Source: Roseateles sp. (GTDB lineage: Bacteria; Pseudomonadota; Gammaproteobacteria; Burkholderiales; Burkholderiaceae_C). From it: a stretch of DNA of 64,000 nucleotides. The stretch lies in assembly GCA_016790285.1 (NCBI GenBank), contig JAEUPJ010000088.1, positions 1 through 64,000 of the forward strand. The letters are read 5' to 3'. Positions 3,479 through 40,357 of the stretch are shown here, piece by piece. A program made the translations under genes and the position numbers. The notes under the pieces were generated by a model. That model had not been told where the DNA came from, did no database searches, and saw only the letters and a list, made by a program, of their open reading frames with translations. The stretch's first letter is position 1; the number at the start of each line of letters is the position of its first letter.

Positions 3479-5041
3479 CTAGAGGCCGAGGTTTAGAAAG
3501 TGCAGCGCAAGCCAAGCAAGGGTGATGCCGAGCGCGAAGCCGCCGGCGCCCCACAGCAGGCTGGACAGCAGCCGGTTGGTGCTGCGCAGCTCGCGCACCA
3601 GGGCGCGAAGCTCGGCGTCGCCACCGCGCTGGGCCTGCTGCTTCAAGGCGTCGTGCAGCAGGCGCGGCAGCTCGGGAATCAGCTGCGCGAAGCGCGGCGC
3701 CTCTTTCATCATCTGCTTGTTGAAGGCCGGCCAGCCGACCTGCTCCTGCATCCAGCGCTCCAGGAAAGGCTTGGCCGTGGCCCAGAGGTCCAGCTCGGGG
3801 TCCAGCTGGCGACCCAGGCCCTCGACGTTGAGCAGCGTTTTTTGCAGCAGCACGAGCTGGGGCTGGATCTCGACGTTGAAGCGGCGCGAGGTCTGGAACA
3901 GCCGCATCAGCACCTGGCCGAGCGAGATGTCCTTCAGCGGCCGGTCGAAATGAGGCTCGCACACGGCGCGAACGGCGCTTTCCAGCGCATCCACCCGGGT
4001 CTCGGGCGGCACCCAGCCGGAGGCGATGTGCAGCTCGGCCACGCGCTTGTAGTCGCGCTGGAAGAAGGCGATGAAGTTCTGCGCGAGGTAGTCCTTGTCC
4101 ACCTCGGTGAGCGTGCCGATGATGCCGAAGTCCAGCGCGATGTAGCGGCCGAACGTCTCGGGCGCCAGGCTCACCTGGATGTTGCCCGGGTGCATGTCGG
4201 CGTGAAAGAAGCCGTCGCGGAAGACCTGGGTGAAGAAGATGGTCACGCCGTCGCGCGCCAGCTTCTTGATGTCGATGCCCGCCTCCTCCAGCACCGCGCG
4301 CTGGGAGATGGGCACGCCCTTCATGCGCTCCATGACGATGACTTCGGAGCTGCACAGGTCCCAGTGCATCTCGGGCACCAGCACCAGGTCCAGGCCGTCC
4401 ATGTTGCGGCGCAGCTGGGCGGCGTTGGCGGCCTCGCGCACCAGGTCCAGCTCGTCGTGGAGGTAGGTGTCGAACTCGGCGACCACCTCGCGGGGCTTCA
4501 GGCGCCGGCCGTCGGCCGAAAAGCGCTCGATCCACACGGCCAGCTGGCGCATCAGGGCGAGGTCGTCGTCGATGACGTCCAGCATGCCCGGGCGCAGCAC
4601 CTTCACGGCCACCTCGCGACCGTCCTTGAGCGTGGCGAAATGCACCTGCGCGATGCTGGCGCTGGCCACAGGCTCGGCGTCGAAGCTGGCAAACAGCTGC
4701 TCCAGCGGCCGCCCGAAGGCGCGCTCCACCATCTCGCGGGACAGCGCGGCCGGGAAGGGCGGCACGCGGTCCTGCAGCCGGGCGAGCTCCTGCGCCACGT
4801 CGGCCGGCAGCAGGTCGCGCCGGGTGGACAGCACCTGGCCGAACTTCACGAAGATGGGGCCCAGCCGCTCCAGCGCCAGGCGCAACCGCACGCCGCGGGG
4901 CTCCTGCCAGCGCCGGCCCAGGCGGGTCAGGCGCCGCAGGATCTGAAAGCGCCGACGGGTGAGGCCCGACAGGGCCAGGTCATCGAGGCCGAAGCGCCAG
5001 ACCGTCCAGAGGATGACCAGCAGCCGCGAGAGGAACCTCAT
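3479..5041 (-). CDS. ubiB: UbiB, atypical kinase/ATPase of ubiquinone biosynthesis
   Basis: A 520-residue member of the ABC1/ADCK/UbiB atypical kinase family, needed for ubiquinone biosynthesis. The family KxGQ motif is at about residues 66-69 (VKFGQ), the Ala-rich loop replacing the P-loop is ASASIAQ at about 126-132, and the lysine-containing VKVLRPG follows. Later motifs include HADMHPGNI and ALDFGIIG. Two hydrophobic segments at the C-terminus (last 30 residues, [19 protein letters not shown]) anchor it in the membrane, as in E. coli UbiB. The start codon overlaps the stop of the upstream ubiJ-like gene by four bases (ATGA), so the two are translationally coupled. Confidence 0.96.
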
Positions 5042-5583
5042 GCGCCGCTGCCGGGGGTCGTCGTCGCGAAACGGGCGGCCATGCCGGACAGCGTGCGCCG
5101 CAGGGTGCGGCCGAATTGGGCCAGTTGCCGGGCCGGCAGCGGGCCGACGATGCCAGCCAGGTCGTCCTCGATGTCCCAGCGCAGGTTGTCCATCAGCCAG
5201 TGCATCTCCCCGGCGAAGGCGGCGTCCCCCTGCACGCTGACGGTGGGTTGCTCGCCGCTCAGGGCGCCCAGCGCCAGCCGGGCGGGGTTGGACGCGTCGA
5301 TCTCGATGCGCAGGCCGCCGGCACCGCCCGTGGGGGCGTCCAGCCGCTCGAACAGCCCGGCCGGCGTGACACCCAGGATCAGGTCAGGCGCTGGCGGCAG
5401 CAGGCTGGGCCAGCCGGCCAGGTGCACCGTCAGGCTGCGCCCGGCCAGCGGCTTGAGCCGGTCCGCCGCGATGGGCTCGCGTGACACCACATGGTTGATG
5501 AGGAGCACGAGGCGATCCTGCAGGGCCGGCAGGAGCAGCGGCGACAGGGACGGCAGGGGTGGCAGGGGCCAGGAAGACGACAT
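5038..5583 (-). CDS. ubiJ: UbiJ-like SCP2-domain protein
   Basis: A 181-residue protein immediately upstream of ubiB, matching in place and composition the SCP2-domain accessory factor UbiJ that binds ubiquinone intermediates and organises the Ubi complex. The middle contains the sterol-carrier-like pattern ([12 protein letters not shown], then [18 protein letters not shown]), followed by [31 protein letters not shown], close to the usual UbiJ ending. The ATG at 5581-5583 ([10 protein letters not shown]) is preferred over a longer frame because it excludes a non-conserved extension. Its stop overlaps the ubiB start by four bases. Identification rests on motifs plus synteny with E. coli ubiE-ubiJ-ubiB. 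Confidence 0.85.
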
Positions 5584-5590
5584 ACGCAAG

Positions 5591-5596
5591 ATTGTA
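5591..5596 (-). promoter_or_regulatory. Candidate -10 element for ubiJ-ubiB
   Basis: TACAAT on the minus strand ends seven bases before the ubiJ ATG, implying a very short leader or a leaderless transcript. No good -35 box is visible at 17 bases. The divergent 134-base gap to epsB must hold promoters for both directions; the plus-strand one could not be identified and epsB has no evident Shine-Dalgarno sequence. Weak motif-only call. Confidence 0.3.
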
Positions 5597-5717
5597 GGCA
5601 GCGGACCCTGAACAAGGGACGCGACGGATTCGGCCGTCAAATTTGTTGATGGAGAATCCCTGATCGTTTTTACCTGCCCCCTGCCGGCCTCCCACGAGGC
5701 CCACCCTAGCCGACACG

Positions 5718-7106
5718 ATGTTTGAGGACCGCAGCTACAAGAGGACGTTCTACAGCGCGCCGCAGTCGGTCGAGTCCCTGATCGCCGCCTTCCTTGAGCC
5801 GGGCATCATCGTCCTGACGTTCCTGCTGGTGAACGGGCATTTCGACGAGCCGGTGATGCGCCCGGCCCTGACGCTGTGCCTGCTGGTGTTCGCCCTCACC
5901 TTCCCCGGCCGCAACCGCTTTGGCGACCATCCGGCCAGCGCGCTCGTGGATGTGCTGTCCTCGTGGCTCGTGCTGCTGGGCATCCTGATGCTGTGCGGCT
6001 ACGCCACGAACAGCCTGCATTACTTCGAGGACGAGGTGCTGGTGTGGTGGGCCATCATCACGCCCATCGCGCAGATCACGGCGATCGAAGCGGGGCGCCG
6101 TGTCCAGAAATGGCGCGCGGCCGACCCCAGCGCCCGCCGCACCGCCGTCGTCGTCGGCGCGGGGCCCCTGGGGCACAAGGTGTCGCGGGCGCTGCGCGAC
6201 AACCAGGGCGTCATCTGCCTGGGCTACTTCGACGACCGCAGCCCCGAGCGGCTGCATCCCGAGGCGGGTGCGGCCATCCTGGGGACGCTGGCCCAGCTGA
6301 GCGACTACGTGCGCGCCAACGGCGTGCGCGAGGTCTACATCACCCTGCCGCTGGGCTCGCAGCCACGCATCGTGGAGCTGCTCGAACAGGTGCAGGGCAC
6401 CACCGCGTCGCTGTTCTTCGTGCCCGACGTGTTCGGCATCAGCATCATCCAGGGCCGGCTGCAGGACATGAACGGCGTGCCGGTCGTGGGCATCTGCGAG
6501 ACGCCCTTCACGGGCACCAACCAGCTCGTCAAGCGGCTCAGCGACATCGTGCTGGCCACGCTCATCCTCATCCTCATCTCGCCCATCCTGCTGCTCGTGG
6601 CGCTCGGCGTGAAGCTCAGCTCGCCGGGGCCCGTCATCTTCAAGCAGCGCCGCAACGGCCTGGATGGCGAGGAGATCATCGTCTACAAGTTCCGCTCCAT
6701 GCGCACGCTGGACAACGGCAGCGTGGTCAAGCAGGCCACGAAGGACGACCCCCGCATCACCCGCTTCGGCGCCTTCATCCGCCGCACCTCGCTGGACGAG
6801 CTGCCCCAGTTCATCAACGTGCTGCAGGGCCGCATGAGCATCGTCGGCCCCCGCCCCCACGCGGTTGCGCACAACGAGGAATACCGCAAGCTCATCAAGG
6901 CCTACATGGTGCGGCACAAGGTCAAGCCCGGCATCACGGGCTGGGCGCAGGTCAACGGCCTGCGGGGCGAGACGGACACCATCGACAAGATGAAGGCCCG
7001 CGTCGAATACGATCTGGAGTACCTGCGCAACTGGTCGCTGGCCCTCGATCTGCAGATCATCCTGCGCACCGTGCGGCTGGTGGTGTTTGATCGACATGCC
7101 TATTAA
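5718..7106 (+). CDS. epsB: Undecaprenyl-phosphate glucose/hexose-1-phosphate transferase (EpsB/WcaJ type)
   Basis: Initiating enzyme of the EPS pathway: transfers a hexose-1-phosphate, probably glucose, from a UDP-sugar to undecaprenyl phosphate at the inner membrane. The 462 residues show four N-terminal membrane helices, a Rossmann-like middle domain starting VVVGAGPLGHKV, a fifth helix (LSDIVLATLILILISPILLL) and the bacterial sugar-transferase catalytic domain (about 270-455). The catalytic domain has KFRSMR, DELPQFINVLQGRMSIVGPRP and PGITGWAQVNGLRGET, all hallmarks of the polyisoprenyl-phosphate hexose-1-phosphate transferase family. It opens the plus-strand EPS block, divergent from ubiJ. 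Glucose as the sugar is family-based inference. Confidence 0.94.
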   Translation: MFEDRSYKRTFYSAPQSVESLIAAFLEPGIIVLTFLLVNGHFDEPVMRPALTLCLLVFALTFPGRNRFGDHPASALVDVLSSWLVLLGILMLCGYATNSLHYFEDEVLVWWAIITPIAQITAIEAGRRVQKWRAADPSARRTAVVVGAGPLGHKVSRALRDNQGVICLGYFDDRSPERLHPEAGAAILGTLAQLSDYVRANGVREVYITLPLGSQPRIVELLEQVQGTTASLFFVPDVFGISIIQGRLQDMNGVPVVGICETPFTGTNQLVKRLSDIVLATLILILISPILLLVALGVKLSSPGPVIFKQRRNGLDGEEIIVYKFRSMRTLDNGSVVKQATKDDPRITRFGAFIRRTSLDELPQFINVLQGRMSIVGPRPHAVAHNEEYRKLIKAYMVRHKVKPGITGWAQVNGLRGETDTIDKMKARVEYDLEYLRNWSLALDLQIILRTVRLVVFDRHAY

Positions 7107-8331
7107 GCCCACCCGCCCCTCCTTCCGCCGGTTCCCTCTGGCCGCCCTGGCCTGCGCCCTGGCCGGTGCCGCCCACGCCCAGACGGACGACACCGCGCCC
7201 TTCTACGCGGGCGCCTCGGTGGGCGTCTCCCACGTCTCCAACGTCTACCGCGTCGGCGGTGGCTCCACGCTGCCTGCGGGCACGAACAACGCCGACACCG
7301 TCACCTCGGCGGGCCTGCTGGCAGGCCTGGACAAGCGGCTGGGCCGCCAGCACCTCACCGTCGACGGCAACCTGCAGAACAACCGCTACAGCGACAACTC
7401 GACGCTGAACAACCGCTCATATTCGCTGCGCAGCGCGCTGAACTGGGAGACCGTGGGCGACCTCTCCGGCACGTTCAGCGCCCAGTCGAGCCGGTCGCTG
7501 GCGCAGTTCAACCTGGGCAGCGGCGCCGAGCAGGTGACCGAGAAGAACATCGAGCGCAACCGCGACTACGCCGCCATCGTGCGGCTGGGCGTGGGCACGC
7601 GCTACTCGCTGGAGGGTGGCTACAGCCAGCGCTCGCGCGACTTCAGCGCGCCGCAGTACGACCGCTTCGTCTACAGCCAGCACACGACGTCGCTGGGGGC
7701 CTATGCCAAACCGGGCGGCAACCTGCGCCTGGGCCTGGCGGCGCGCCGCACGAATGGCGATTACCCGCGCTACCCGATCTACAGCCCCATCGTGCCGGTG
7801 CGCATCGGCAGCCTCGTGATCGACTTCAACCGCGACGACGTCGACCTGACCGCCGCCTGGTCCACCGGCGGCACAAGCCAGATCAACGCCCGCATCAGCA
7901 CGAGCCGCGTGCGCTACGAGCCTTCCACCAGCCCGCTGCGCGACTTCAGCGGCACGACCGGCGCCGTGAACTGGAACTGGCAGCCCACCGGCAAGGTCAC
8001 GCTGGGCGTGCAGTACGTGCGCGACACCGGCCAGGAGACGCTGATCAGCGCCACCGAGGTCAACCGCATCTACACGAGCTGGCAGCTCAACGGCGGCTAC
8101 GCCCTGACGAGCAAGGTCAGCCTCAACGCCACGGTCGCGACCAACCGCAACCACCGCGACGACAGCGCCTTCGACAACGACCGCAGCTACGGCCTGGGCC
8201 TGCGCTGGTCGTTCTCGCGGGCCTTGAGCCTGTCCTGCCAGTACAACCACGCCAGCCGCGACAGCAGCGTGCAGGTCTACACCTACAGCGCCAGCAGCTA
8301 CGGCTGCACCGGCCAAGCCCTCGTCTACTGA
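7096..8331 (+). CDS. epsL: EpsL-like outer-membrane beta-barrel protein
   Basis: A 411-residue exported protein. A signal peptide (MPIKPTRPSFRRFPLAALAC..., cleavage near AHAQ) is followed by alternating hydrophobic/polar strands rich in Tyr, Asn, Arg and Thr, the pattern of an outer-membrane beta barrel, ending in a strand-like C-terminus (GCTGQALVY). Position directly after epsB and length fit the EpsL family found in exosortase-associated EPS operons, where it probably helps polymer export at the outer membrane. The ATG at 7096 is preferred over a TTG nine bases upstream and overlaps epsB by 11 bases. Specific function is inferred from context. Confidence 0.75.
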   Translation: MPIKPTRPSFRRFPLAALACALAGAAHAQTDDTAPFYAGASVGVSHVSNVYRVGGGSTLPAGTNNADTVTSAGLLAGLDKRLGRQHLTVDGNLQNNRYSDNSTLNNRSYSLRSALNWETVGDLSGTFSAQSSRSLAQFNLGSGAEQVTEKNIERNRDYAAIVRLGVGTRYSLEGGYSQRSRDFSAPQYDRFVYSQHTTSLGAYAKPGGNLRLGLAARRTNGDYPRYPIYSPIVPVRIGSLVIDFNRDDVDLTAAWSTGGTSQINARISTSRVRYEPSTSPLRDFSGTTGAVNWNWQPTGKVTLGVQYVRDTGQETLISATEVNRIYTSWQLNGGYALTSKVSLNATVATNRNHRDDSAFDNDRSYGLGLRWSFSRALSLSCQYNHASRDSSVQVYTYSASSYGCTGQALVY

Positions 8332-9350
8332 TGACCACCGTTCTGCTCACCGGTGCCGCCGGCTACATCGCCTCGCACACCTGGCTTGCGCTGCAGCAGG
8401 CGGGCTACCGCGTGGTCGGCGTCGACAACTTCTCCAACAGCTCGCCCGTCGTGCTGGAGCGCCTGGCCGAGCTGGCCAGCGCGCCCATCGAGTTCGAGCG
8501 GGCGGACGTCTGCGACGCCGCGGCCCTGGACGCCGTCTTCAGCGAGTACCACCCGGCAGCCGTCGTGCACTTCGCCGCCTTCAAGGCGGTGGGCGAATCG
8601 GTCGCGCAGCCCCTGGCCTACTACCGCAACAACCTCGGCGGCCTCGTCAACACTTGCGAGGCCATGAAGCGCCACGGCTGCACGCGCATCGTGTTCAGCT
8701 CCAGCGCCACCGTCTATGGCGCCCCGGAGCGCCTGCCGCTGCGCGAAGACGCGGCCACGTCGGCCACCAACCCCTACGGCGCGACCAAGCTCATGGGCGA
8801 GCAGATCCTGCGCGACCTGGGCGTGAGCGACCCGGCCTGGCAGACCGCCTGCCTGCGCTACTTCAACCCTGTGGGCGCCCACGAGAGCGGCCGCATCGGC
8901 GAAGACCCCCGCGGCACGCCCAACAACCTGATGCCCTATGTCGCGCAGGTCGCCGTCGGCCGGCGCGACAAGCTCTCCGTCTTCGGGGGCGACTACCCCA
9001 CGCACGACGGCACCGGCGTGCGCGACTACATCCACGTGACGGACCTGGCCGAGGGCCACGTCGCCGCGCTGCGCTGGCTGCTGGGCAACACCGGCTCGCT
9101 GACCGTCAACCTCGGCACCGGCCAGGGCTACAGCGTGCTCGACCTCGTTCGCGCCTACGAGAAGGCCAGCGGCCGCAGCGTGCCGTATGAAATAGTGGAC
9201 CGCCGCCCCGGCGACGTGGCCGCCTGCTGGGCCGACCCGGCCGCCGCCCGCGAGACACTCGGCTGGGCCGCGCGCCTGGACCTCGCCCGCATGTGCGAGG
9301 ACAGCTGGCGCTGGCAACACCTCAATCCGCACGGATTCAACTCTTCCTGA
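8331..9350 (+). CDS. galE: UDP-glucose 4-epimerase
   Basis: Short-chain dehydrogenase-type epimerase that interconverts UDP-glucose and UDP-galactose using bound NAD, supplying UDP-Gal to the EPS. The 339 residues show the N-terminal Rossmann motif (TGAAGYIASH, the third Gly of GxxGxxG replaced by Ala), VDNFSNSS, the Ser of FSSSATVYG and the catalytic Tyr-Lys pair in NPYGATK. Later GalE signatures are present: RYFNPVGAHESG, NLMPYVAQVA and GTGVRDYIHVTDLA. The ATG shares one base with the stop of the epsL-like gene (TGATG), so the genes are coupled. Length is typical. Confidence 0.94.
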   Translation: MTTVLLTGAAGYIASHTWLALQQAGYRVVGVDNFSNSSPVVLERLAELASAPIEFERADVCDAAALDAVFSEYHPAAVVHFAAFKAVGESVAQPLAYYRNNLGGLVNTCEAMKRHGCTRIVFSSSATVYGAPERLPLREDAATSATNPYGATKLMGEQILRDLGVSDPAWQTACLRYFNPVGAHESGRIGEDPRGTPNNLMPYVAQVAVGRRDKLSVFGGDYPTHDGTGVRDYIHVTDLAEGHVAALRWLLGNTGSLTVNLGTGQGYSVLDLVRAYEKASGRSVPYEIVDRRPGDVAACWADPAAARETLGWAARLDLARMCEDSWRWQHLNPHGFNSS

Positions 9351-9354: not shown

Positions 9355-10788
9355 ATGACCCAGGTTCAACCCGTCATCATGGCCGGCGGCTCCGGCACCC
9401 GGCTGTGGCCGCTGTCGCGCGCCGGCTACCCCAAGCAGTTCCTCGTGCTCTCGGGCAACGAAAGCCTGTTCCAGCTGGCCGCCGGCCGCCTGGCCGCGCT
9501 GGCCGCACCGGGCCTGGAGCTCGCAGCGCCCTGCATCGTCGGCAACGAGGAACACCGCTTCCTGGTGCTCGACCAGCTCCGCGAAACGCGCCTGGAACCC
9601 AGCAGCGTGCTGCTGGAGCCCATGGGCCGCAACACCGCCCCCGCCCTGACGCTGGCCGCCCTGGCCGCGCTGGAAGGTGGCCATGACCCGGTCCTCGTCG
9701 TGACCCCGGCCGACCAGACCGTCACGCGGCCCGAGGCCTTCACCGCTGCCCTGCACGACGCCATCCGCATCGCGGCCGAAGGCGCCATCACCATCCTGGG
9801 CATCACGCCCGACCGCCCCGAGACGGGCTACGGCTACATCCGCACCACGGGCGACGCCGGCGGCCTCAGCGTGGCGCAGTTCGTCGAGAAGCCCAACCTC
9901 GAGACCGCCGAGCGTTATCTCGCCGAGGGCGGCTACTACTGGAACAGCGGCATGTTCGTGCTGCGCGCCAGCGTCTGGATGAAGGCGCTGGAGCGCTTCC
10001 GTCCCGACATCGCCACCGCCACCCGCGCCGCCTGGGACGCCCGCAAGACCGACGCCAAGTTCGTGCGCCCGGGCAAGGCCGAGTTCGCCGCCGTGCCCAG
10101 CGAGTCGGTGGACTACGCCGTCATGGAACGCTGCCCCGGCACCGACATCCCGCTGCGCATGGTGGCCCTGGACGCCGGCTGGAACGACCTCGGCGCCTGG
10201 GAAGCCGTCTGGCAGGTGGCCGACAAGGACGAGTTCGGCAACGCCTTCGTCGGTGACGCCCTCATCGCCGACAGCAAGAACACGCTGGTGCACGCCACGA
10301 GCCGCCTGGTCGGCGTCGTCGGCCTGACCGACATCGTCGTCGTCGAGACGCCCGACGCCGTGCTCGTGAGCGACCGCGCGCGCAGCCAGGAGGTCAAGCA
10401 GATCGTCAACCGCCTGGGCGCCGAGCAGCGTGGCGAGCAGGCCCTGCACCGCAAGGTCCACCGCCCCTGGGGCTGGTACGACAGCATCGACAACGGCCCG
10501 CGCCACCAGGTCAAGCGCATCATGGTCAAGCCGGGCGCCTCGCTCAGCCTGCAGATGCACCACCACCGCGCGGAGCACTGGATCGTCGTCAGCGGCACGG
10601 CCGAGATCGTCAATGGCGACAAGACCATCCTGCTGACCGAGAACCAATCCACCTACATCCCGCTGGGCCAGACCCACCGCCTGGCCAACCCGGGCAAGGT
10701 GCCGCTGGAGATCATCGAGGTGCAGTCGGGCTCCTACCTGGGCGAAGACGACATCGTCCGCTTCGAAGACACCTACGGCAGAGCTTGA
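9355..10788 (+). CDS. manC: Bifunctional mannose-1-phosphate guanylyltransferase / mannose-6-phosphate isomerase
   Basis: Type II enzyme making GDP-mannose from mannose-1-phosphate, with a C-terminal cupin isomerase that converts fructose-6-phosphate to mannose-6-phosphate. The N-terminal nucleotidyltransferase has GGSGTRLWPLSRAGYPKQF, the FVEKPN motif and YYWNSGMFV; the C-terminal cupin (about 350-477) has RPWGWYD and SLQMHHHRAEHW with metal-binding His residues. At 477 residues it is full length. It starts four bases after galE. GDP-mannose feeds the polymer and is the substrate for gmd/fcl encoded 21 kb away in the same island. No phosphomannomutase gene is visible, so that step must come from elsewhere. 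Confidence 0.95.
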   Translation: MTQVQPVIMAGGSGTRLWPLSRAGYPKQFLVLSGNESLFQLAAGRLAALAAPGLELAAPCIVGNEEHRFLVLDQLRETRLEPSSVLLEPMGRNTAPALTLAALAALEGGHDPVLVVTPADQTVTRPEAFTAALHDAIRIAAEGAITILGITPDRPETGYGYIRTTGDAGGLSVAQFVEKPNLETAERYLAEGGYYWNSGMFVLRASVWMKALERFRPDIATATRAAWDARKTDAKFVRPGKAEFAAVPSESVDYAVMERCPGTDIPLRMVALDAGWNDLGAWEAVWQVADKDEFGNAFVGDALIADSKNTLVHATSRLVGVVGLTDIVVVETPDAVLVSDRARSQEVKQIVNRLGAEQRGEQALHRKVHRPWGWYDSIDNGPRHQVKRIMVKPGASLSLQMHHHRAEHWIVVSGTAEIVNGDKTILLTENQSTYIPLGQTHRLANPGKVPLEIIEVQSGSYLGEDDIVRFEDTYGRA

Positions 10789-10790
10789 GC

Positions 10791-10870
10791 CCTCCCCCTA
10801 CCGGCTTCGCCGGCCCCCTCCAGGGGGCGCACCCAGTGGCCTGGCAAAGCCAGATCCACGGGTGCCGCTT
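10791..10870. repeat. REP-like composite palindromic element
   Basis: The manC-rfbB gap holds three adjacent inverted repeats. CCGGC-TTC-GCCGG is at 10801-10813 and CCCCCT-CC-AGGGGG at 10814-10827. A longer imperfect stem spans 10829-10865, where GCACCC, GTGG and CTGGC pair with GCCAG, CCAC and GGGTGC around an AAA loop. This compact multi-stem architecture resembles interspersed extragenic palindromes of Burkholderiales. It may also attenuate transcription between manC and rfbB. No second full copy was seen in the window. Confidence 0.7.
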
Positions 10871-10904
10871 GAGAATGCACTAGGCTGGCACTAGAGGAGA
10901 AAAG

Positions 10905-11960: not shown

Positions 11961-11963
11961 CGC

Positions 11964-15613: not shown

Positions 15614-15678
15614 TGCTTGTACTCGTTCAGATGCAGATCACGCCTTTGTAATGCACATGCATGACGGCGCCGTGCAAA

Positions 15679-16686: not shown

Positions 16687-16690
16687 TCTA

Positions 16691-16875: not shown

Positions 16876-16882
16876 TTCAGCA

Positions 16883-25018: not shown

Positions 25019-25030
25019 CACTCCGTCCCT

Positions 25031-26278: not shown

Positions 26279-26285
26279 GGTGGCT

Positions 26286-28102: not shown

Positions 28103-28107
28103 AGCTG

Positions 28108-31091: not shown

Positions 31092-31109
31092 CACGGCTCA
31101 TCGACTGGT

Positions 31110-32048: not shown

Positions 32049-32055
32049 GCCGCGC

Positions 32056-33174: not shown

Positions 33175-33878
33175 GACTTCAGAGAACCGTTGAAATTGAT
33201 TTTGCCAACGACACGCTCGCGGTCCTGCGAAGGAACGGCGGCGAGAAGGTCGTTGATGAAACGCGCATGGACGGCGACCGCCGCATCCATGTTGGGGTTG
33301 ATGGAAGACACCCGCACCAGCATGCCCTCGGGGATGAGCCGCCTCAATCCGTACCGAATGGATACAAGCCGGCGCTGGGTGTTCGAGATGGTGGCTTCGT
33401 CGCCCATCAAAACCCAATAGGTCACCGGCTCGAGCCGCTGACCCAGCGCAGTCATCAAATGTCGCACGGGAATCATGAAACCAGGTGCAACCTGGAGCTG
33501 TGCGTCCCTCGTATCGGTGACCCTGAAGCCCTGGCTGGGGTAGCAGACGTCCGGAATGTGAACGGTAAGCCCGTCAGACTGGTCGCCGCCGTAGGCCACC
33601 GAGAGCATCACGCGCTCGCCACGCGCATTCACGTAGGTCCGCGCCAGGGTCTGGTTGTAGATCTTGTTCAGGAGCGCCTGCTGATCCGGCGGCGGCACGA
33701 CGACCGCAACGTGCGGGTCGATGCGCCAGTCTCCGAACTGCTCCGGGAACAACTGCTCAAGCTTGAAGCCAGGATGCAGGTCCGAAACGCGGATGGTCGG
33801 GCGCGCCCATTGGGCGAGGGCGGCAGAAGCGCCCATCGAAAGCATGGCAATGGCAGCCACTCGACGATTGGACATCAT
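33171..33878 (-). CDS. epsI: EpsI family exosortase-associated protein
   Basis: A 235-residue protein of the EpsI family that accompanies or is fused to exosortases in EPS operons. It has an N-terminal hydrophobic export segment ([25 protein letters not shown]), then the family region [53 protein letters not shown] with a conserved His/Cys region, and [14 protein letters not shown]. Its biochemical role is unknown; it is thought to act in the periplasm with the exosortase. It overlaps xrtB and gmd by four bases each. Confidence 0.9.
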
Positions 33879-34750
33879 GCAAGGCTCTTGAACCTGCGCG
33901 CCAGTGCGACCATGCCATGGTCTACGGCGAGGATGAGCGTAAGCGCGACGACGAACAGCACCATGCCGGCAAAGCCGTGCACGAAACCCTGCCCAGCTTC
34001 ATCGCCGAAGTGGTAGGTCACCAGCACGAGGATGCAGACCCGCACGATGTTGGCGACAAAGGAGATCGGGATGATCATCACTGCCATGAACAGGTTACGC
34101 ACCGCAGACTTGTAGTTCATGATGTTCATGTAAAGCAGGCCGAGCGCCTCCAACGTGAACATGGAATTCAGACCGGCACACGCGTCCGCGACCAGCAGCT
34201 GGTAGGGCCCGACCGTCAAGATGACGCCGCTGCGACCCACGGGGTAGCCCAACTGATACAGCAAACTGCTAGCGACCGCTGATACCGCCGACTTCAGCGG
34301 TGTGGTCACTGCCACCACCAGGGTGGCGGGCAACGGGACCATGAAGATCAGGAAGAACAGCGGGAACCACATCAGCCGAACGGCGGCGCGCCCCTTGAAC
34401 AGCAGCAGCAGCGCTGCGCTGATCGGAATCAGCGCGCCAACCTCGAGCAAAGCCACCGCCTGCGAACGCCCAAGCACGAACATGAGCAGGCCCAGCGCAA
34501 AGCAAGCCGTGCCGGGCAAAAACGCAGGTTGGTGAGGCAGCGCGAAGAGCTCTTCGCGTTTGCGGTACGCCAGCCAAAGGACGACGACCAGGATGATCGG
34601 GCCATGGCCCTGTTCATCGCGGGACCACACCGTCGTCGCGAGATCGCGGAAGGTCGGCGCGAACATCAGCACGTAGCCGATCGCGAGCATCACCGCCACC
34701 GCGAGGTCCATGCCGGCGGGCAGTCGTAGGTTGAGGCGTGCTGGCGGCAT
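33875..34750 (-). CDS. xrtB: Exosortase B (XrtB/EpsH)
   Basis: A 291-residue integral membrane cysteine-protease-like transpeptidase of the exosortase family, with about eight helices. The predicted catalytic triad is present: Cys 191 in VADACAGLNSMFTLEALG, Arg 237 in FVANIVRVCILV and His 258 in GQGFVHGFAG. DEQGHGPIIL near the N-terminus is also typical. Exosortases process PEP-CTERM-tagged exported proteins; in EPS loci (methanolan epsH) they are needed for polymer production. No PEP-CTERM protein is encoded in this window. Its stop overlaps the epsI start; 34 bases separate it from epsG. Confidence 0.93.
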   Translation of the reverse strand: MPPARLNLRLPAGMDLAVAVMLAIGYVLMFAPTFRDLATTVWSRDEQGHGPIILVVVLWLAYRKREELFALPHQPAFLPGTACFALGLLMFVLGRSQAVALLEVGALIPISAALLLLFKGRAAVRLMWFPLFFLIFMVPLPATLVVAVTTPLKSAVSAVASSLLYQLGYPVGRSGVILTVGPYQLLVADACAGLNSMFTLEALGLLYMNIMNYKSAVRNLFMAVMIIPISFVANIVRVCILVLVTYHFGDEAGQGFVHGFAGMVLFVVALTLILAVDHGMVALARRFKSLA

Positions 34751-34784: not shown

Positions 34785-35666
34785 TCAGTGCTCGTTGTAG
34801 AGAACGCCAAGAATCTTTGCCCGGCTGTGCTGGAGAGCGGTCGTCAACTGCACCAAGGTCTTCACACGCGATTCATCGCGGCGCGCCACGACCAGCACCG
34901 ACCCGCAGCGCGCAGCGATCACCGCGGCATCGGAGCCGTAAGCCGCCGCGGGCGTGTCCACCACCACGTGGTCGAACTTGCTGATGAGTTCGTCCAGCAG
35001 CAGACCGAACGCAGGCCGCTCAACCAGCTCCACTGGGTTGGGAGGGGTCGGGCCGACCGGCAGCACGAAGAGGTTCGGCGCCCCAACAGCCTGCTGGATG
35101 ACCTGGTTCTCGGCACGGCCTGAAAGAATGGAGGAAAGCCCAGCAGCGTTCTTGAGGCCAAAGACCTCATGCAGCCGCGGAGAGCGCATGTCCGCATCAA
35201 CCAGCAGGGTGCGGCCTCCCAGCTGCGCGAGCGTGATGGCGAGGTTGGCAGCGACGAAAGTCTTGCCATCACCGATGTCCGCACTGATGACGGCCAGTGG
35301 CCTGCGTGCACCGCCCAGGCTGGGGTCGATGCGCATGATGATCTGGCTGCGCAGGTCGCGGAACGCCTCGACCTGGCGCGAGAAGGGCTTGTTCAGGGCG
35401 ACCAACTCGGGGCCCACCTGCTTTTGCTCTTCGGTGGCCACCGGGTAGTGGTACTGCTGGGCAAGCGCGAAGATGACGTCATCCGCGCTCGCCACACCCA
35501 TGGCGATGGCAGCTTCACCAAATCGCACGGAATGCGACTTCTGGTAGGCGAGAACACTCTCCACCTGTGCAGCCGTGAGGTGGCGCGTCTCGGCAATGAT
35601 GGCCCCGATGGAGCGCTCGCGATTCGCCCTGCCGGAATCCAGTCGATCAGTTTGAGGATCTTGCAT
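34785..35666 (-). CDS. epsG: EpsG-type chain-length/tyrosine-kinase-like ATPase
   Basis: A 293-residue BY-kinase-like P-loop protein partnered with the Wzz-like EpsF. Residues 15-75 resemble the N-terminal domain of type II secretion ATPases (LTAAQVESVLAYQK...FGEAAIAMG). The ATPase domain has a Walker A at 129-136 (ADIGDGKT), Walker A' at 155-159 (LVDAD) and Walker B at 234-240 (VVVDTPA). The usual C-terminal tyrosine cluster is missing; only Tyr 290 is near the end. The ATG at 35664-35666 is chosen because the longer frame runs into epsF. It probably regulates polymer length and export. Confidence 0.9.
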   Translation of the reverse strand: MQDPQTDRLDSGRANRERSIGAIIAETRHLTAAQVESVLAYQKSHSVRFGEAAIAMGVASADDVIFALAQQYHYPVATEEQKQVGPELVALNKPFSRQVEAFRDLRSQIIMRIDPSLGGARRPLAVISADIGDGKTFVAANLAITLAQLGGRTLLVDADMRSPRLHEVFGLKNAAGLSSILSGRAENQVIQQAVGAPNLFVLPVGPTPPNPVELVERPAFGLLLDELISKFDHVVVDTPAAAYGSDAAVIAARCGSVLVVARRDESRVKTLVQLTTALQHSRAKILGVLYNEH

Positions 35667-35685
35667 GATCTGAAGACACCGTTCG

Positions 35686-37104
35686 TTAGTTCGTCGCAAC
35701 CGGACCGCTGCGGCCTGAAAGCAAGGAGTTGCCAGGCTTGGCAAGACGCTTGGGGACGTTGTTGTTGGCAGGCATGACCCCGATCACCGGCAACCCCAGA
35801 GCCAATTCGACATCGTCGATGACACGCACCCTGCGGTCCAGGAACTCCAAGGCGAACGTCGTGCCCAGAGCCAGCAGGGCCCCCACAAACACGGCGAGGA
35901 TCGTGTTGATCACGATGCGCGGCGAAGAGGGCTTCAGCGGCGGTGTCGCCTGAGTCAGCATGCTCACGTAGCTCTGCGTGGTCTGGCTCTCCAGGCTGCT
36001 CTGCGTCAGTCGAGCCAGCACGGTGTCGTAGGCACGCTGGGCGCTCTCGACGTCACGGCTCAGCACGGACCCCTGGTCGCGAAGTGCCTTCATCTTGAGC
36101 ACCTTGGCGCGCTGGGCTTCCAGCTGAGCCTTGATCTCGCCAGCACGTTGCTGGTTGATGTTGTTCGAAATACCCAATGAGCTGCCGATCTTGACGGTTT
36201 CACTGTCGATTCGGGTCTTGAGCTCGGCCAGGTTGGCGCGCGTTTCGATGACCTGCGGGTTCTTGTCGCCGAGCTTGGAGCTCAGCTCCTGCAGCTTGGC
36301 TTCGAGCCGCGCCTGGTCGGCCTTGAGGCCGGCGATCAGCGGGTTGTTGAGCACTTCCTGCATGCGGTCGGCACCAGCGCCGCGGGCGGCGGTCTGGCGG
36401 CTGACGGAGTCGGACGCCAGCGATTGCAGGGCCACGTACTGCGTCGACAACTCGTTGAGACGCGCGTTCTCGACGTCGAGCCGCTCGTCCACGGCGATCA
36501 CGCCGTTGTCGGACTGGAACTGACTGAGCTTGGCCTGCGCCTGCTCAAGCTGGTCGCGGGCCTCCTTCGCGCGAAGGTCGAAGAAGCTGCTGTACTGGCG
36601 AGCCGGGTCGACACGCAACTCCAGCGTCGTCTCGTTGTAGGCGACAACGAACGCGTTGGCGATGGCCGCAGCGAACCTCGGGTCAGGCGCGCGGTAGGAC
36701 ACGCTGATCACGTTGGACTCACGCGAAGGCTTCACGTCCATGTTCTTCTGGAACAGGTCAGCCAACCAGTTCTCGATGCTGCCCTCGCCCTTGGTCTCGG
36801 ACTGCCATTGCTCGCGGATCGTGGGGTTCTCCGCCAGCTTGAGGTTCTTGACCACACGCAGCGCCACTCGATCGCTCTGGATGACGTCCACCTGCGTGGC
36901 CATGAATGCCGGATTCATGAGCGCACCCGACAGCACGGACGAGACGGGATCCGGCTTGGGGTCGACCACCACTGACGCAACAGCCGTGTACTGCTTGGGC
37001 AGCAGCAGGCTCACCACCACGGCCAGTACCACTGTCGTGGCAAAGACGATGAGCGCAAGCAGCCAACGGGCGCGGAGCACCGCGATAAATTGTCCGAAGT
37101 TCAT
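35686..37104 (-). CDS. epsF: EpsF-type chain-length determinant protein (Wzz/PCP)
   Basis: A 472-residue polysaccharide co-polymerase. It has an N-terminal helix (ARWLLALIVFATTVVLAVVVSLLL) followed by the Wzz motif YTAVASVVVDPKPDPV, a long periplasmic coiled coil (about residues 175-375, rich in Gln/Glu/Lys/Ala) and a C-terminal helix (IVINTILAVFVGALLALGTTFAL) preceded by the Pro-rich PPLKPSSPR typical of the family. The cytoplasmic tail LDRRVRVIDDVELALGLPVIGVMP contacts the kinase partner. It lies between epsE (14-base gap) and epsG (19-base gap). It should set chain length and bridge to the outer-membrane exporter. Confidence 0.93.
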   Translation of the reverse strand: MNFGQFIAVLRARWLLALIVFATTVVLAVVVSLLLPKQYTAVASVVVDPKPDPVSSVLSGALMNPAFMATQVDVIQSDRVALRVVKNLKLAENPTIREQWQSETKGEGSIENWLADLFQKNMDVKPSRESNVISVSYRAPDPRFAAAIANAFVVAYNETTLELRVDPARQYSSFFDLRAKEARDQLEQAQAKLSQFQSDNGVIAVDERLDVENARLNELSTQYVALQSLASDSVSRQTAARGAGADRMQEVLNNPLIAGLKADQARLEAKLQELSSKLGDKNPQVIETRANLAELKTRIDSETVKIGSSLGISNNINQQRAGEIKAQLEAQRAKVLKMKALRDQGSVLSRDVESAQRAYDTVLARLTQSSLESQTTQSYVSMLTQATPPLKPSSPRIVINTILAVFVGALLALGTTFALEFLDRRVRVIDDVELALGLPVIGVMPANNNVPKRLAKPGNSLLSGRSGPVATN

Positions 37105-37118
37105 GCTGCCTACCTTCT

Positions 37119-37949
37119 TTAAAACAGGCTTTCCTTGACGTACACCACGTCACCGTCCTTGAGGCTGTCGTCCATGCCCGGCTGCACGACCTGCACCTTG
37201 CCGTCGGCGGCCTTGCGGTGCACGCGGATGCCGCGCTCGGTGCCGCGCTGGTTCAGGCCACCGCCTGCGGCCAGGGCCTGCATGACGGTCATGCCACGCT
37301 CCAGCCGCATCGGGCCGGGGCGCTGCACTTCGCCGTAGATGTAGACGAGGGGCGCGCGGTCCACCCACAGCACGTCGCCGTTCTGGATGAGCACGTCATT
37401 GGCGCGGCCGGCGTCGGTGTTGGGGCCGAAGACGCTGGGCAGGTCGACTTCCAGGCGGTAGGGCTTGCCGGCACGCGTGCCGCTGAGCACGAGGATGTCG
37501 CCGCCCGTGGTGGCCACGCCGCCGGCGTTGGCCAGCAGGTCGGTCAGCCGCATGTCGGTGGTCTCGATCGGGTAGCGGCCCGGGCGGTTGACCTGGCCGA
37601 GCACGCTGGCCTGGTTGCCCTTGACCTGCAGCAGGATCAGCGTGACCTGGGGCGACTTCACGAAGTTGCCGCTCTTCAGGCCGTCGGCAATGAGCTTCTC
37701 GGCAGCACTCACGCCCAGCCCGCCGATGCGCACGCTGCCCAGCAGCGGGTAGCTGATGACGCCGGTTTCAGAGACGCGCGTCTCCAGCGTCAGGTCGGGG
37801 TTCTGGTAGACGACGACGCGCACGACGTCGCCGGCACCCAGCCGGTATTCGGCGGCCGCGGCCGCGGCGGGTGCCTGGGCCTGCGCCTGGGCGCCGAGCG
37901 AAGCCAGGCCCAGCGTGGCAGCGAGAAGCAGTTCTTGGATACGCATCAT
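37119..37949 (-). CDS. epsE: EpsE polysaccharide export outer-membrane protein (Wza-like)
   Basis: A 276-residue exported protein of the Wza/OPX family. A signal peptide (LLLAATLGLASLGAQAQA) precedes the polysaccharide-export domain (YRLGAGDVVRVVVYQNPDLTLETRVSETGVISYPLLGSV) and two SLBB domains (VLGQVNRPGRYPI and VYIYGEVQRPGPMRL). No lipobox is visible, unlike E. coli Wza. It is expected to form the periplasmic/outer-membrane channel through which the polymer leaves. The first of two adjacent ATG codons (37947-37949) overlaps the epsD stop by four bases. Confidence 0.93.
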   Translation of the reverse strand: MMRIQELLLAATLGLASLGAQAQAQAPAAAAAAEYRLGAGDVVRVVVYQNPDLTLETRVSETGVISYPLLGSVRIGGLGVSAAEKLIADGLKSGNFVKSPQVTLILLQVKGNQASVLGQVNRPGRYPIETTDMRLTDLLANAGGVATTGGDILVLSGTRAGKPYRLEVDLPSVFGPNTDAGRANDVLIQNGDVLWVDRAPLVYIYGEVQRPGPMRLERGMTVMQALAAGGGLNQRGTERGIRVHRKAADGKVQVVQPGMDDSLKDGDVVYVKESLF

Positions 37950-38923
37950 TTCAAGCCCATGCCCTTGGAGATGGAAGCGGCGTCGAGGCCGCTGGCGGCA
38001 GGTGCCGCAGGAGTGGCAGGTGCAGCCGCCTCGGAGGCGGCAGGCAGCGCGGGCGCGGCCGACGCGGCGGCGGGAGCCGGCTGCGCGAACTTGCCGACGT
38101 ATTCGATCTTGGAGCCTTCACGCAGGGCCTTGAGGTCCTTCTGGATGGCTTCGGCCTTGCGCTGGTTGAGCAGGAAGGCTTCGATGGCGGGGCGCGCACG
38201 CGCTTCGTCCACCGGCTGGCTGCGCGAGCCCACGAGGTAGAGCACGGTCAGCCCGGCGGGGTTGGGGCTGATCATGGAGTCGCCGTCCTTCATGCGGGAG
38301 ATGGCGTCCAGGCTGGCCAGGGGCAGCTGCTCGGCGGCGCGCACGGCCTGGTTGCCGGTGAAGCGCAGGTCGGCGGACTTCAGGTACTCGGCGAACTCGT
38401 TGAGGTTCTTGGCGGCCGCGAGCTTGGCGCGGATGGCTTCGTACTGCTCGGGCTTGGCCTCGATCTGGACTTCCTGCAGGCTGTAGATGCGGCGGTCCTT
38501 GAAGAGCGCGGGCTTGTCGTTGTAGTACTTGGCGACGTCCTCGGCGCTGGGCTTGGCCACGCCTTCGCCGACGCGCTCGGCGTAGGCACGGGCGATGATC
38601 TCGCGCTTGGCGGCTTCGATCTGCTGCACCACGCGCGGGTCGCGGTCGACCTTCTGCTCCTGGGCCTTCTGGACGGCGAGTTCCTGGTCGATCAGGCGCT
38701 CCAGCACCTGGCGGCTGGCCTGTTCGGCCTGCTCGGCCTTCAGGCCAGGCTGGCGCTGCAGCACGAAGTTGATCTGATGGACGGTGATCTCTTCCTTGTT
38801 GACCTTGGCGGCCGTCTGGGACGCCTTGTCGCCCTTGTCGCCACCGCAGGCCGTCAGCAGTGCCGCGGCGGCAATGACGGCCAGCAGCAGAGGGGCCCGG
38901 TGGTTGATCAGTCGCGTTGCCAT
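37946..38923 (-). CDS. epsD: EpsD family peptidyl-prolyl cis/trans isomerase lipoprotein
   Basis: A 325-residue lipoprotein of the EpsD family: SurA/PpiD-like peptidyl-prolyl isomerases tied to exosortase EPS operons. The signal peptide ends in the lipobox LTAC (Cys 26). Next come a SurA-like N-domain (VNKEEITVHQINFVLQRQPGL...ASRQVLERLIDQELAVQ), a parvulin-type domain (RRIYSLQEVQIEA...LASLDAISRMKDGD) and a Pro/Ala-rich tail. The ATG at 38921-38923 is chosen because the upstream frame covers the promoter region. It is the first gene of the 17-gene operon and may fold outer-membrane or exported partners. Confidence 0.9.
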   Translation of the reverse strand: MATRLINHRAPLLLAVIAAAALLTACGGDKGDKASQTAAKVNKEEITVHQINFVLQRQPGLKAEQAEQASRQVLERLIDQELAVQKAQEQKVDRDPRVVQQIEAAKREIIARAYAERVGEGVAKPSAEDVAKYYNDKPALFKDRRIYSLQEVQIEAKPEQYEAIRAKLAAAKNLNEFAEYLKSADLRFTGNQAVRAAEQLPLASLDAISRMKDGDSMISPNPAGLTVLYLVGSRSQPVDEARARPAIEAFLLNQRKAEAIQKDLKALREGSKIEYVGKFAQPAPAAASAAPALPAASEAAAPATPAAPAASGLDAASISKGMGLK

Positions 38924-39188
38924 CTTGTGAAGGTCCTGTTTGTAGAGAAGAGGCTCCCCGCCTAGGAAGCGGACGAGTGTAGCGGCGGCATATGTCGGCT
39001 CTAGGGCCACCACGAACCCATTACAGGGGTCGCGTGGCGGCCTGGAGCCGTCCGCGGTTAGAGCAAATTCAAGCGGAAAGTTCCGCCCATCCCACGTTCG
39101 TGGGGGGTGGGCCGTGCCAGTGAGGATAGCGCCGGGGTGACTGCGCCTGAACCCCCGGGCGGGGGCCGACAAACCCTAACGTCTCAGC
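38924..39188 (-). promoter_or_regulatory. Upstream control region of the eps minus-strand operon
   Basis: About 265 non-coding bases before epsD. Two perfect 6-2-6 palindromes stand out, four bases apart: GCGGAA-AG-TTCCGC (39073-39086) and CCCACG-TT-CGTGGG (39091-39104), centres 18 bases apart. Two-base centres cannot make stable RNA hairpins, so they read as DNA operator half-sites. A CCCCC-GGGC-GGGGG repeat (39152-39165) lies farther up. A -10-like TATCCT on the minus strand (about 39124-39129) has only a poor -35. Operator role is inferred. Confidence 0.5.
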
Positions 39189-39213
39189 GGGCCGCCCCGA
39201 ACGGGTGCGGCCC
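39189..39213 (-). terminator. Hairpin after ubiE, likely terminator
   Basis: GGGCCGC (39189-39195) and GCGGCCC (39207-39213) pair, with inner CCC/GGG extending the stem around a GAAC loop and one bulged T. It begins nine bases beyond the ubiE stop. The U-tract is lacking on the minus strand, so termination efficiency is uncertain. Confidence 0.5.
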
Positions 39214-39221
39214 CTGCCGGC

Positions 39222-39953
39222 TCAGCACTTGATGCCGGCGTGCAGCGCGACGATGCCGGCGCTGAGGTTGTGCACGTCCACGTGGCCGAAGCCGGCCGTC
39301 TTCATCATGGCCTTGAGGGTGGCCTGGTCGGGGTGCATGCGGATGGATTCCGCCAGGTAGCGGTAGCTGTCGGCATCACCCGCGAAGAGCGAGCCGAGCT
39401 TGGGCAGGATGTTGAACGAGTACCAGTCGTAGGGCTTGCGCAGGGGCTCGGCGATGCGCGAGAACTCCAGCACCAGCAGCCGCCCGCCCGGCTTGAGCAC
39501 GCGGCACATTTCGGCCAGGGCCAGGTCCTTGTGGGTCATGTTGCGCAGCCCGAAGGCGACGCTGACGAGGTCGAAGCTGGCGTCCTTGAACGGCAGTTTC
39601 TCGGCGTCGGCCAGGCTGGTGGGCAGGATCAGGCCCTCGTCCAGCAGCCGGTCGCGGCCCTGGCGCAGCATGGCTTCGTTGATGTCGGTGTGCACGACCA
39701 TGCCGGTGTCGCCCACCTTGCGGGCGAAGGCGCGGGACAGGTCCCCGGTGCCGCCAGCGATGTCCAGCGCCCGCTCGCCGGGCTTGAGGTTGGCCACCTG
39801 CACGGTGTAGGCCTTCCAGGCGCGGTGCAGGCCGGCCGACATGACGTCGTTCATCAGGTCGTACTTGGAGGCGACCGAGTCGAACACGCCGCGGACCTTG
39901 GTGGCCTTCTCGGCCTCGTCGACCTGCTGGAAACCGAAATGGGTTTGAGTCAT
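39222..39953 (-). CDS. ubiE: Ubiquinone/menaquinone biosynthesis C-methyltransferase
   Basis: A 243-residue SAM-dependent C-methyltransferase of the UbiE family, methylating the benzoquinol ring in ubiquinone (and menaquinone) synthesis. It begins [47 protein letters not shown], the UbiE N-terminus. The SAM motif [12 protein letters not shown] is at 62-73, with [34 protein letters not shown] later. The ATG at 39951-39953 is the family start. Eleven bases separate it from the upstream DUF971 gene. In E. coli ubiJ and ubiB follow directly; here the EPS island intervenes. Confidence 0.97.
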
Positions 39954-39964
39954 AGGTGCTGGAT

Positions 39965-40357
39965 TCAGTGCGAGTGGCAGCTGCCGCCGGACTTCACGGG
40001 CATGGGGTCGTCGCGCCCCTTGCCGGCGGCGGCCAGGCGCGCCTCGTAGTCGCGCCACAGGGCGTCCTGCTGGCTGCCGAGCTTGTAGAGGTAGTCCCAG
40101 GAGAACAGGCCGCTGGCGTGCCCGTCGGAGAACTCCGGGCGCACGGCGTAGTGGCCCACGGCCTCGATGTTGGTGATGCCCACCTCGCGCTTGCCCGTTT
40201 GCAGCACTTCCTGGCCCGGGCCGTGGCCCATGACCTCGGCCGAGGGGCTGTACACGCGCATCAGCTCGAACGGGATGCGAAACCGGGCACCGTCGTCGAA
40301 GGCGATCTCGAGCACGCGGGACTGCTGGTGGACGGTGAGTTCGGTGGGCGCTGGCAT
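39965..40357 (-). CDS. DUF971 (GBBH-like) domain protein
   Basis: A 130-residue protein with the DUF971 / gamma-butyrobetaine-hydroxylase-like N-terminal domain. Visible are [72 protein letters not shown], matching family features (a short beta domain with possible metal ligands His, Cys). The C-terminus SGGSCHSH is Cys/His-rich. Function is unknown; it commonly neighbours ubiE in betaproteobacteria. The ATG at 40355-40357 gives the family N-terminus. Confidence 0.87.

Follow-up and report, generated by a model that had tools for sequence, protein, structure and literature searches.

A probable anchored, exchangeable exopolysaccharide locus in a split ubiquinone gene cluster of Roseateles

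Introduction

How did a 33 kb exopolysaccharide (EPS) locus come to lie between genes for ubiquinone synthesis, and is it the locus that moves or what the locus carries? The question is raised by a 64,000-nucleotide (nt) stretch of Roseateles sp. DNA (assembly GCA_016790285.1, contig JAEUPJ010000088.1, positions 1 to 64,000), which we call the window. Open reading frames (ORFs) and profile matches give the minus-strand order DUF971, ubiE, the 33 kb EPS block, ubiJ and ubiB, in agreement with an earlier description made from the letters of the window alone (the sequence-only reading). In E. coli, ubiE, ubiJ and ubiB are contiguous. The sequence-only reading took the arrangement to mean that a foreign EPS island had been inserted recently and precisely, and regarded the two ubi junctions as candidate recombination breakpoints. 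Comparison with related genomes points elsewhere: the window very probably holds an anchored, exchangeable EPS locus in a split ubiquinone cluster.

The ubi anchors and the split between them

The genes that bound the locus are as follows.

39965..40357, minus strand: DUF971/GBBH-like_N gene, left outer anchor (PF06155, 8e-30; 81-96% identity in 13 one-contig congeners)
39222..39953, minus strand: ubiE (243 amino acids, aa), left anchor (PF01209, 7e-84)
5038..5583, minus strand: ubiJ, right anchor (position; homologue identity; family model in aligned members)
3479..5041, minus strand: ubiB, right anchor (PF03109, 2.3e-76; 89-96% identity in 13 congeners)

UbiE is 92-98% identical in the 13 one-contig congeners and 86% identical in the fragmented genome G010; ubiJ is 69-91% identical across the same 13. 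(G and L numbers are handles for genomes and loci; G000 is the window's own genome.) UbiJ of the window has no Pfam family match even at an E value of 1 and reaches the NCBIfam UbiJ model at E 0.08 only. We name it ubiJ because of its position, its 44% identity to homologues from two contiguous clusters, and the match of three of five aligned members to the NCBIfam model at E up to 1 (best 1.4e-05). Between the anchors, the EPS block begins with epsD (start 38923) and ends with the gene for a WcaJ-type sugar transferase (5718-7106). The coordinates of the sequence-only reading hold except for one nucleotide each, at the ubiJ start (5583) and the epsD start. Its minus-strand layout is right for the ubi anchors and wrong for the EPS block, of which 5718-14283 (epsB to rmlC) and 16790-20371 (wecG and a heparinase-like gene) lie on the plus strand; the block is therefore not one single transcription unit.

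To place this arrangement among relatives, 120 genomes were searched for UbiE, UbiB, exosortase and Tim44: the window's own, 19 congeners, 52 family genomes of other genera, and 48 genomes of other families in the order. Of the 19 congeners, 13 carry an exosortase gene between ubiE and ubiB within a single contig; in the other 6, ubiE and ubiB fall on separate contigs, and a contiguous cluster is seen in none. Three of the split-contig congeners (G001, G008 and G011) carry ubiE-epsD on one piece and gne..epsB-ubiJ-ubiB on another. Among the 52 other-genus family genomes, 34 are contiguous with Tim44 between ubiE and ubiB, so the proposed polarity, in which EPS genes split an ancestrally contiguous cluster, is upheld. 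EPS genes lie between ubiE and ubiB in six of the 52 (G026, G030, G032, G047, G052, G064), and four have reduced loci, with a gap of 1.5-6 kb in three and 9.5 kb in one. The remainder have ubiE and ubiB on different contigs (five genomes) or lack one or both genes (three). In the different-contig group, the EPS left arm follows ubiE in G070 and G061, and the right arm precedes ubiJ in G070 and G054. Of the 48 order genomes, contiguous clusters with Tim44 account for 10, gaps under 1.5 kb for 20 and other arrangements for 18; nine have exosortase matches, none of them between or near ubi genes. The nearest on the same contig is 205 kb away (G086), and all others are more distant or on a separate contig.

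A set of 80 named loci around UbiE, classed by script, comprised 27 EPS loci, 29 contiguous with Tim44, 8 with sugar genes only, 2 other or short and 14 undecided; of the 27, two were called from weak matches (L035, L037) and two more are incomplete loci (L041, L058). Roseateles depolymerans, R. toxinivorans, Rubrivivax gelatinosus IM 151, Azohydromonas, Albitalea terrae and Aquabacterium humicola are among the named EPS carriers. Loci with sugar genes only occur, for example, in Ideonella alba, I. azotifigens, I. paludis, Scleromatobacter humisilvae and Schlegelella koreensis, and the cluster is contiguous in the listed loci of Hydrogenophaga, Acidovorax, Rhodoferax, Comamonas and Limnohabitans. 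In all 20 one-contig carriers (own included), ubiE and ubiJ-ubiB are colinear, in the same orientation and 30-46 kb apart, and epsD-E-F-G-H, manC-galE-epsB and ubiJ-ubiB keep a single order and orientation. The EPS genes thus occupy the same chromosomal site, bounded by conserved housekeeping genes, as in anchored exchangeable loci. The split is common to the genus and several other genera, and the event can no longer be called recent.

One origin and the Tim44 entry site

In a tree of DUF971, UbiE and UbiB from 71 genomes, 25 EPS genomes, 4 reduced ones and G051 fall on one side of a branch with support 86. A tree of RpoB (26 genomes) places 8 EPS and 4 reduced genomes in one clade (support 98), with G051 unresolved, and a combined tree of RpoB, DUF971, UbiE and UbiB (29 rows; 11 EPS and 4 reduced) does the same (support 98), with G051 joined at 95 and the full-EPS genome G030 basal in the clade. 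RpoB was found in 26 of the 30 genomes sought, the exceptions being the own genome, G017, G054 and G064. Since the sampled carriers and the reduced loci belong to a single clade, the stem of that clade is the best date for the split, and a single origin is the most economical reading.

Contiguous relatives read ubiE-Tim44-ubiJ-ubiB. Two members of the clade keep Tim44 beside ubiE: in G064 a Tim44 gene of 227 aa separates ubiE from epsD (locus L130; also a Pfam match), and G071 has one of 161 aa between ubiE and manC (L133; recognised by eye from its C-terminal motif, with no Pfam match). These remnants indicate that the EPS genes entered between Tim44 and ubiJ and that Tim44 was lost later elsewhere. 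The single insertion of the sequence-only reading is retained on grounds of economy; its ubiE-ubiJ target is not, since Tim44 lay between. The window genome's sole Tim44 gene (G000:C24) was considered as the displaced cluster gene and rejected. It is better read as a second paralogue: against G057, which has both, it scores 236 bits with the non-cluster copy and 108 bits with the cluster copy.

Conserved arms around a replaced centre

We compared 33 window genes against the fetched loci. The EPS genes and the two breakpoints discussed below are as follows.

37946..38923, minus strand: epsD, EpsD-family peptidyl-prolyl isomerase, left conserved arm (TIGR02925, 2.5e-70)
37119..37949, minus strand: epsE, polysaccharide export protein, left conserved arm (TIGR03028, 7e-101)
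37073..37193, no strand: inner left breakpoint of the swapped cassette, at epsE/epsF (sliding-window identity)
35686..37104, minus strand: epsF, chain-length determinant (TIGR03017, 2.5e-163)
34785..35744, minus strand: epsG, tyrosine kinase (TIGR03029, 4.6e-80, under its curated cut-off; TIGR01007, over its cut-off)
33875..34750, minus strand: epsH, exosortase B (XrtB) (TIGR03113, 9e-107, above cut-off)
33171..33878, minus strand: epsI, B type (NF045609, 6.7e-81)
31110..33171, minus strand: gmd and fcl-like nucleoside-diphosphate-sugar genes (PF16363, 5.8e-157; PF01370, 6e-67)
20372..31094, minus strand: variable centre with wzx, wzy, an acyltransferase, four glycosyltransferases, an asnB-like gene and a hexapeptide transferase (Pfam)
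16790..20371, plus strand: variable centre with a wecG-like glycosyltransferase and a heparinase-like protein (PF03808, 2.5e-57; PF07940, 4.9e-07)
16785..16835, no strand: inner right breakpoint, at wecG/gne, approximate (sliding-window identity; blastn)
14288..16785, minus strand: gne-like epimerase and UDP-glucose dehydrogenase (ugd), right conserved arm (PF01370, 1.3e-57; PF03721, 9e-65)
9355..14283, plus strand: manC, rmlB, rmlD, rmlA and rmlC, right conserved arm (Pfam for all but rmlC, which we take to be so from its translation and place; 77-96% in 13 congeners)
8331..9350, plus strand: galE (TIGR01179, 1e-127)
7087..8331, plus strand: epsL-like outer-membrane protein (TIGR03014, 9e-55, under its curated cut-off, with 186 bits against 275)
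5718..7106, plus strand: wcaJ/epsB-like initiating sugar transferase, right edge of the EPS locus (TIGR03023, 5e-151; PF02397, 4e-69)

All 13 one-contig congeners have the arms (epsD and epsE on the left; gne, ugd, rmlCADB, manC, galE and epsB on the right), at 76-96% identity, and epsL is only 48-76% identical across them. The centre, which we define as epsI or epsH to gne with gmd and fcl included, has a whole counterpart solely in G005 (58-82% identity) among the 13 congener loci. Counting genes at 50% identity or more as counterparts, the median sharing of centre genes over the 182 ordered pairs of 14 genus loci is 0.083, with zero in 86 pairs and more than 0.5 in 7. The pair G002 and G012 gives the sharpest picture: their outer DNA is 94 and 91.7% identical, their epsD-E 75%, and they share no centre gene at 50% identity. 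Wzx of the window is matched in the genus's 20 genomes by G005 at 75% and by six others at 27-34%, and in a search of 399 order genomes (a draw without G005) only by its own genome. Conserved outer genes therefore surround a replaced centre of wzx, wzy and glycosyltransferase genes. The G+C content is 61-68% over the centre and 66-75% outside the locus.

The trees of these parts disagree. G000 groups with G018 and G019 in the flank tree (support 99) and in the ManC-GalE-EpsB tree (99), and with G005 in the EpsFGH tree (100). The approximately unbiased (AU) test rejects G000+G018+G019 on EpsFGH (p 1e-9) and G000+G005 on ManC-GalE-EpsB (p 5e-84). With rejection in both directions and the G002/G012 pair, the centre is seen to be exchanged against the organismal tree. 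EpsFGH alleles group across genera as well (G007 with G054, support 100; G014 with G032, support 91), and the manC-galE-epsB tree broadly tracks the flank tree.

Sliding-window identity locates the edges of the last exchange. At epsE/epsF, identity to G019 and G018 drops from 86/84% to 72/70%, and that to G005 stays at 84-86%; there is a short mosaic stretch within epsF. At wecG/gne, identity to G019 and G018 is 58/48% on the wecG side and 89/90% on the gne side, and blastn alignments to both resume at gne. On this comparison the window's last swap broke inside the arms, near 37.1 and 16.8 kb, and not at the ubi junctions that the sequence-only reading had put forward. In the G002/G012 pair similarity is lost right at the 3' end of ubiE, so the left junction can be a breakpoint elsewhere. 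The within-arm breakpoints, seen with one genome per species compared, fit homologous recombination within a species, short of proof.

A history for the locus, and its rivals

We propose the following course of events. An exosortase-B EPS locus would have entered ubiE-Tim44-ubiJ-ubiB at the Tim44/ubiJ gap in the ancestor of a Roseateles-Ideonella-Rubrivivax-Azohydromonas-type clade. Tim44 would then have been deleted in most descendants, and ubiJ-ubiB would have gained a promoter of their own. From then on, the housekeeping genes and the EPS arms (epsD-epsE to the left, gne-ugd-rmlCADB-manC-galE-epsL-epsB to the right) may have served as homology for recombination that swaps the polymer-specific centre and often epsF-I as well, by which the polymer would change and its export and precursor supply would stay. 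Some lineages would later have shed most of the locus.

The last step concerns the reduced loci. Between ubiE and ubiJ, G055 has manC only, G071 manC-galE (with Tim44) and G024 manC-fcl-galE; G040 has epsD, a WecB-like gene (by eye), gne, rml, manC and galE. The epsD of G040 stands beside ubiE without epsE-H and is 38% identical, and two loci from metagenome-assembled genomes, L041 and L058, keep epsD and epsE together with manC-galE-ubiJ. The leftover epsD of G040 and the nested tree positions of the reduced loci favour loss from full loci. One could instead suppose assembly in stages: manC, galE and rml would have arrived next to ubiJ before the genes for export, exosortase and polymer, so that the short loci (G055, G071, G024 and the galE-only Ideonella) would be early stages. 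Such loci do contain the ubiJ-adjacent genes, G071 retains Tim44, and a separate full-EPS clade is not rejected on the flank proteins (p 0.29). Against this, the RpoB and combined trees put the short loci inside the clade with full-EPS G030 basal, and G040, L041 and L058 retain left-arm genes; we judge staged assembly unlikely. Several independent insertions of related EPS loci at one place would account for EpsFGH alleles that cross genera and for mostly unrelated centres. They sit poorly with core arms whose order and orientation are the same in all 20 one-contig carriers, with the TACAAT box that precedes ubiJ in 25 of 25 loci (below) and with a manC-galE-epsB tree that broadly tracks the flanks, and we consider them very unlikely.

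Two further accounts strike us as extremely improbable. The recent insertion of the sequence-only reading fits a gene order that matches one insertion and the 34 of 52 other-genus family genomes that are contiguous. It is opposed by the presence of the same split in 13 of the 19 congeners and in 6 of the 52 family genomes from other genera, by the Tim44 remnants, and by similarity to G018 and G019 that passes both junctions: windows over epsD-epsE are 80-92% identical, the left spacer 67-81%, and epsB to gne 73-97% (lowest in epsL). The sequence-only reading had itself held that the same EPS genes at this site in all relatives would argue against a recent insertion; relatives do have EPS genes there, mostly different ones. 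Nor does the locus look like a recently mobile island, having no integrase gene among the 40 ORFs scanned, no tRNA site, no paired direct repeats (below) and no patchy presence in close relatives, because no congener has a contiguous cluster. The other account is an inversion or translocation beside an existing EPS locus that broke the ubiE-ubiJ adjacency. It could draw on G051, whose ubiE and ubiB sit on separate contigs and whose 6.7 kb beyond ubiE contain no window EPS gene, and on G054, in which ubiE is away from the epsB-ubiJ-ubiB end; the 20 of 20 one-contig carriers that are colinear, in one orientation and 30-46 kb apart speak against it. In G054 (L148) ubiE, apart from ubiJ-ubiB, is followed by transporter genes resembling the urea/amide type, and in G051 (L150) a PhaR-like regulator gene comes next, along with a gene whose product has a VPEP C-terminus (all by eye).

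Several points tell against the anchored-locus history that we prefer. A full-EPS clade excluding the reduced loci is not rejected on flank proteins (AU p 0.29), and the RpoB-only tree puts the four reduced rows together (support 20) beside G070, so that a single early reduction, rather than several, is possible; the reading of reduced loci as losses leans on the basal place of G030 and the 38%-identical epsD of G040. The groups for the AU tests on the EpsFGH and ManC-GalE-EpsB trees were picked after the identities were known, and the G008 ManC row in the latter comes from the wrong contig piece (a long branch). The state of 3 of the 19 congeners (G010, G013, G016) is undecided, the neighbourhoods of G051 and G054 are rearranged and match neither state neatly, and the window genome is an incomplete draft (95% complete) in which rpoB has no match at E 1e-100.

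A promoter-like box before ubiJ

The most surprising part of the locus, and a new one, is a promoter-like box before ubiJ that is tied to the split.

5591..5596, minus strand: TACAAT, a -10-like box 7 nt before the ubiJ start codon, a candidate promoter from its motif distribution

In an alignment of 13 genus loci, the block CTGCCTACAAT near the ubiJ ATG is invariant. At up to one mismatch this block is matched in 25 of 25 EPS loci with ubiJ, including all 8 other-genus loci outside the alignment, and in none of 32 contiguous family loci (of 34; G038 and G058 lay outside the scan), 7 order loci or 3 other pieces. Counting both strands, 2.83 Mb of sequence contain 27 copies of the pattern [CG]TG[CT]CTACAAT, of which 26 are the ubiJ-preceding sites; not one falls in the ubiE-ubiB interval of the 32 contiguous loci. 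From the end of the box to the in-frame ubiJ ATG there are 7 nt in 19 of 26 loci, 6 in 6 and 8 in 1, and by eye no ribosome site is recognisable between the two. This strict spacing, together with the lack of a recognisable ribosome site, suggests that TACAAT is the -10 box of a leaderless ubiJ-ubiB transcript, and the distribution of the box suggests that the severed half of the ubi cluster was rewired after the split. Two results run counter to this: a consensus scan before ubiJ gave no sigma-70 promoter, and the box is present in one of the four reduced loci, the other three being without it at up to one mismatch.

The ubi genes may even be more than passive anchors. On this idea, which we hold to be doubtful, a leaderless ubiJ-ubiB promoter was gained at the split and has since persisted in all full carriers compared, both ubiquinone gene sets bracket the cassette, and selection for respiration holds a replaceable cassette in place over genus-level time: a recombinant that lost an end would lose ubiquinone synthesis, so selection would keep the cassette where it is. 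The locus clearly illustrates how an operon can be severed, a new promoter-like element being confined to the lineages in which the cut is seen.

Other elements at the junctions

Two conserved elements lie between ubiE and epsD.

39090..39105, minus strand: palindrome CCCCCAC-GAAC-GTGGGR (CCCCCnnGAACGTGGGG) between ubiE and epsD (genus conservation)
38977..38999, minus strand: promoter-like element before epsD ([G]CGACATAT..GCTACACT), a candidate from genus conservation

At up to two substitutions, the palindrome is found in 15 of 17 genus loci and the promoter-like element in 17 of 17, each in none of the other-genus loci with epsD. The palindrome could be an operator or an RNA hairpin; a genome-wide operator was rejected, as it has a single match across the whole own genome (up to one mismatch). 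A sigma-54 site before the EPS genes was likewise rejected, with 3 window matches against 7.4 expected. The sequence-only reading had described hairpins rather than mobile genes at the flanks, and rightly so: the left junction has two terminator-like minus-strand stems (39089-39070 and 38970-38953; 0.2 expected), the right junction one weak stem (5623-5638; 0.1 expected), and the 40 ORFs scanned (848-51074) include no mobile-element or integrase gene. The window has no tRNA and no Rfam match. No direct repeat of 20 nt or longer pairs the two junctions, and none of four imperfect two-copy families links the two ends.

Relation to known polysaccharide loci

Anchored polysaccharide loci are known mainly from pathogens. 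As summarised in PMC6249986, the pneumococcal cps locus lies between dexB and aliA and the Klebsiella K locus between galF and gnd, and these anchors promote exchange of whole loci by homologous recombination over the flanks. The window shares with them a fixed site, housekeeping anchors, conserved outer genes, a replaced wzx-wzy-glycosyltransferase centre and allele exchange between lineages. It differs in its polymer class, an exosortase-B/PEP-CTERM EPS of betaproteobacteria; in its site in the ubiquinone cluster, whose severed half has a conserved promoter-like box of its own; and in that the site goes back to a traceable split with remnants (Tim44, epsD). On the features compared, the locus would be of the anchored exchangeable kind, ordinary in kind and well documented, and differences in polymer are predicted. 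It extends anchored-locus logic to Roseateles-type bacteria and gives a stepwise record, within one clade, of an exchangeable surface-polymer locus becoming fixed, from contiguous outgroups through holders of the displaced gene to full and reduced loci.

Aquincola tertiaricarbonis and Zoogloea are related organisms. There, a large EPS cluster with PEP-CTERM proteins is needed for flocs (PMC9850573); the same source assigns their epsB2 to a PEP-CTERM system of a type other than that of Methylobacillus sp. 12S, and its main text has no match to 'ubi'. The methanolan locus of strain 12S is the type case for EpsH and exosortase: EpsH is tied to a large EPS locus there, and its disruption left methanolan production unaffected (Haft et al., PMC1569441). 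The window matches that type with EpsD, EpsE, EpsF, XrtB and B-type EpsI above cut-off; the ubi placement and the swapped centre are not described in the available portions of PMC1569441. Rubrivivax gelatinosus, by name of the same clade as the carriers, has two large polysaccharide clusters, psc1 and psc2, mapped by a transposon screen (PMC3684757). The psc2 table there holds Kps-type transport genes and no ubi gene, and the text has no match to 'ubi'; going by these parts of the source, the ubi-linked EPS locus of R. gelatinosus IM 151 (L028) appears to be a locus other than psc1 and psc2. A literature search for ubi genes together with EPS loci, judged by titles and abstract openings and with most subscription papers outside it, found no description of the arrangement.

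The exosortase system and its neighbours

The left part of the EPS block is an exosortase-B (XrtB) system. Of its proteins and EpsL, the five named above exceed the NCBIfam curated cut-offs and EpsG and EpsL fall short. The own genome has 65 PF07589 (PEP-CTERM) matches over cut-off, PEP-CTERM proteins being the expected exosortase substrates. In G002 (L085:16335-19039), three genes with PEP-CTERM-like C-termini (VPEP motif, by eye) lie between ubiE and epsD, putative exosortase substrates at a variable left edge. Within the exchanged centre of the window, the heparinase-like protein (812 aa, 17933-20371, plus strand) has a long low-complexity N-terminus; it might trim or release polymer.

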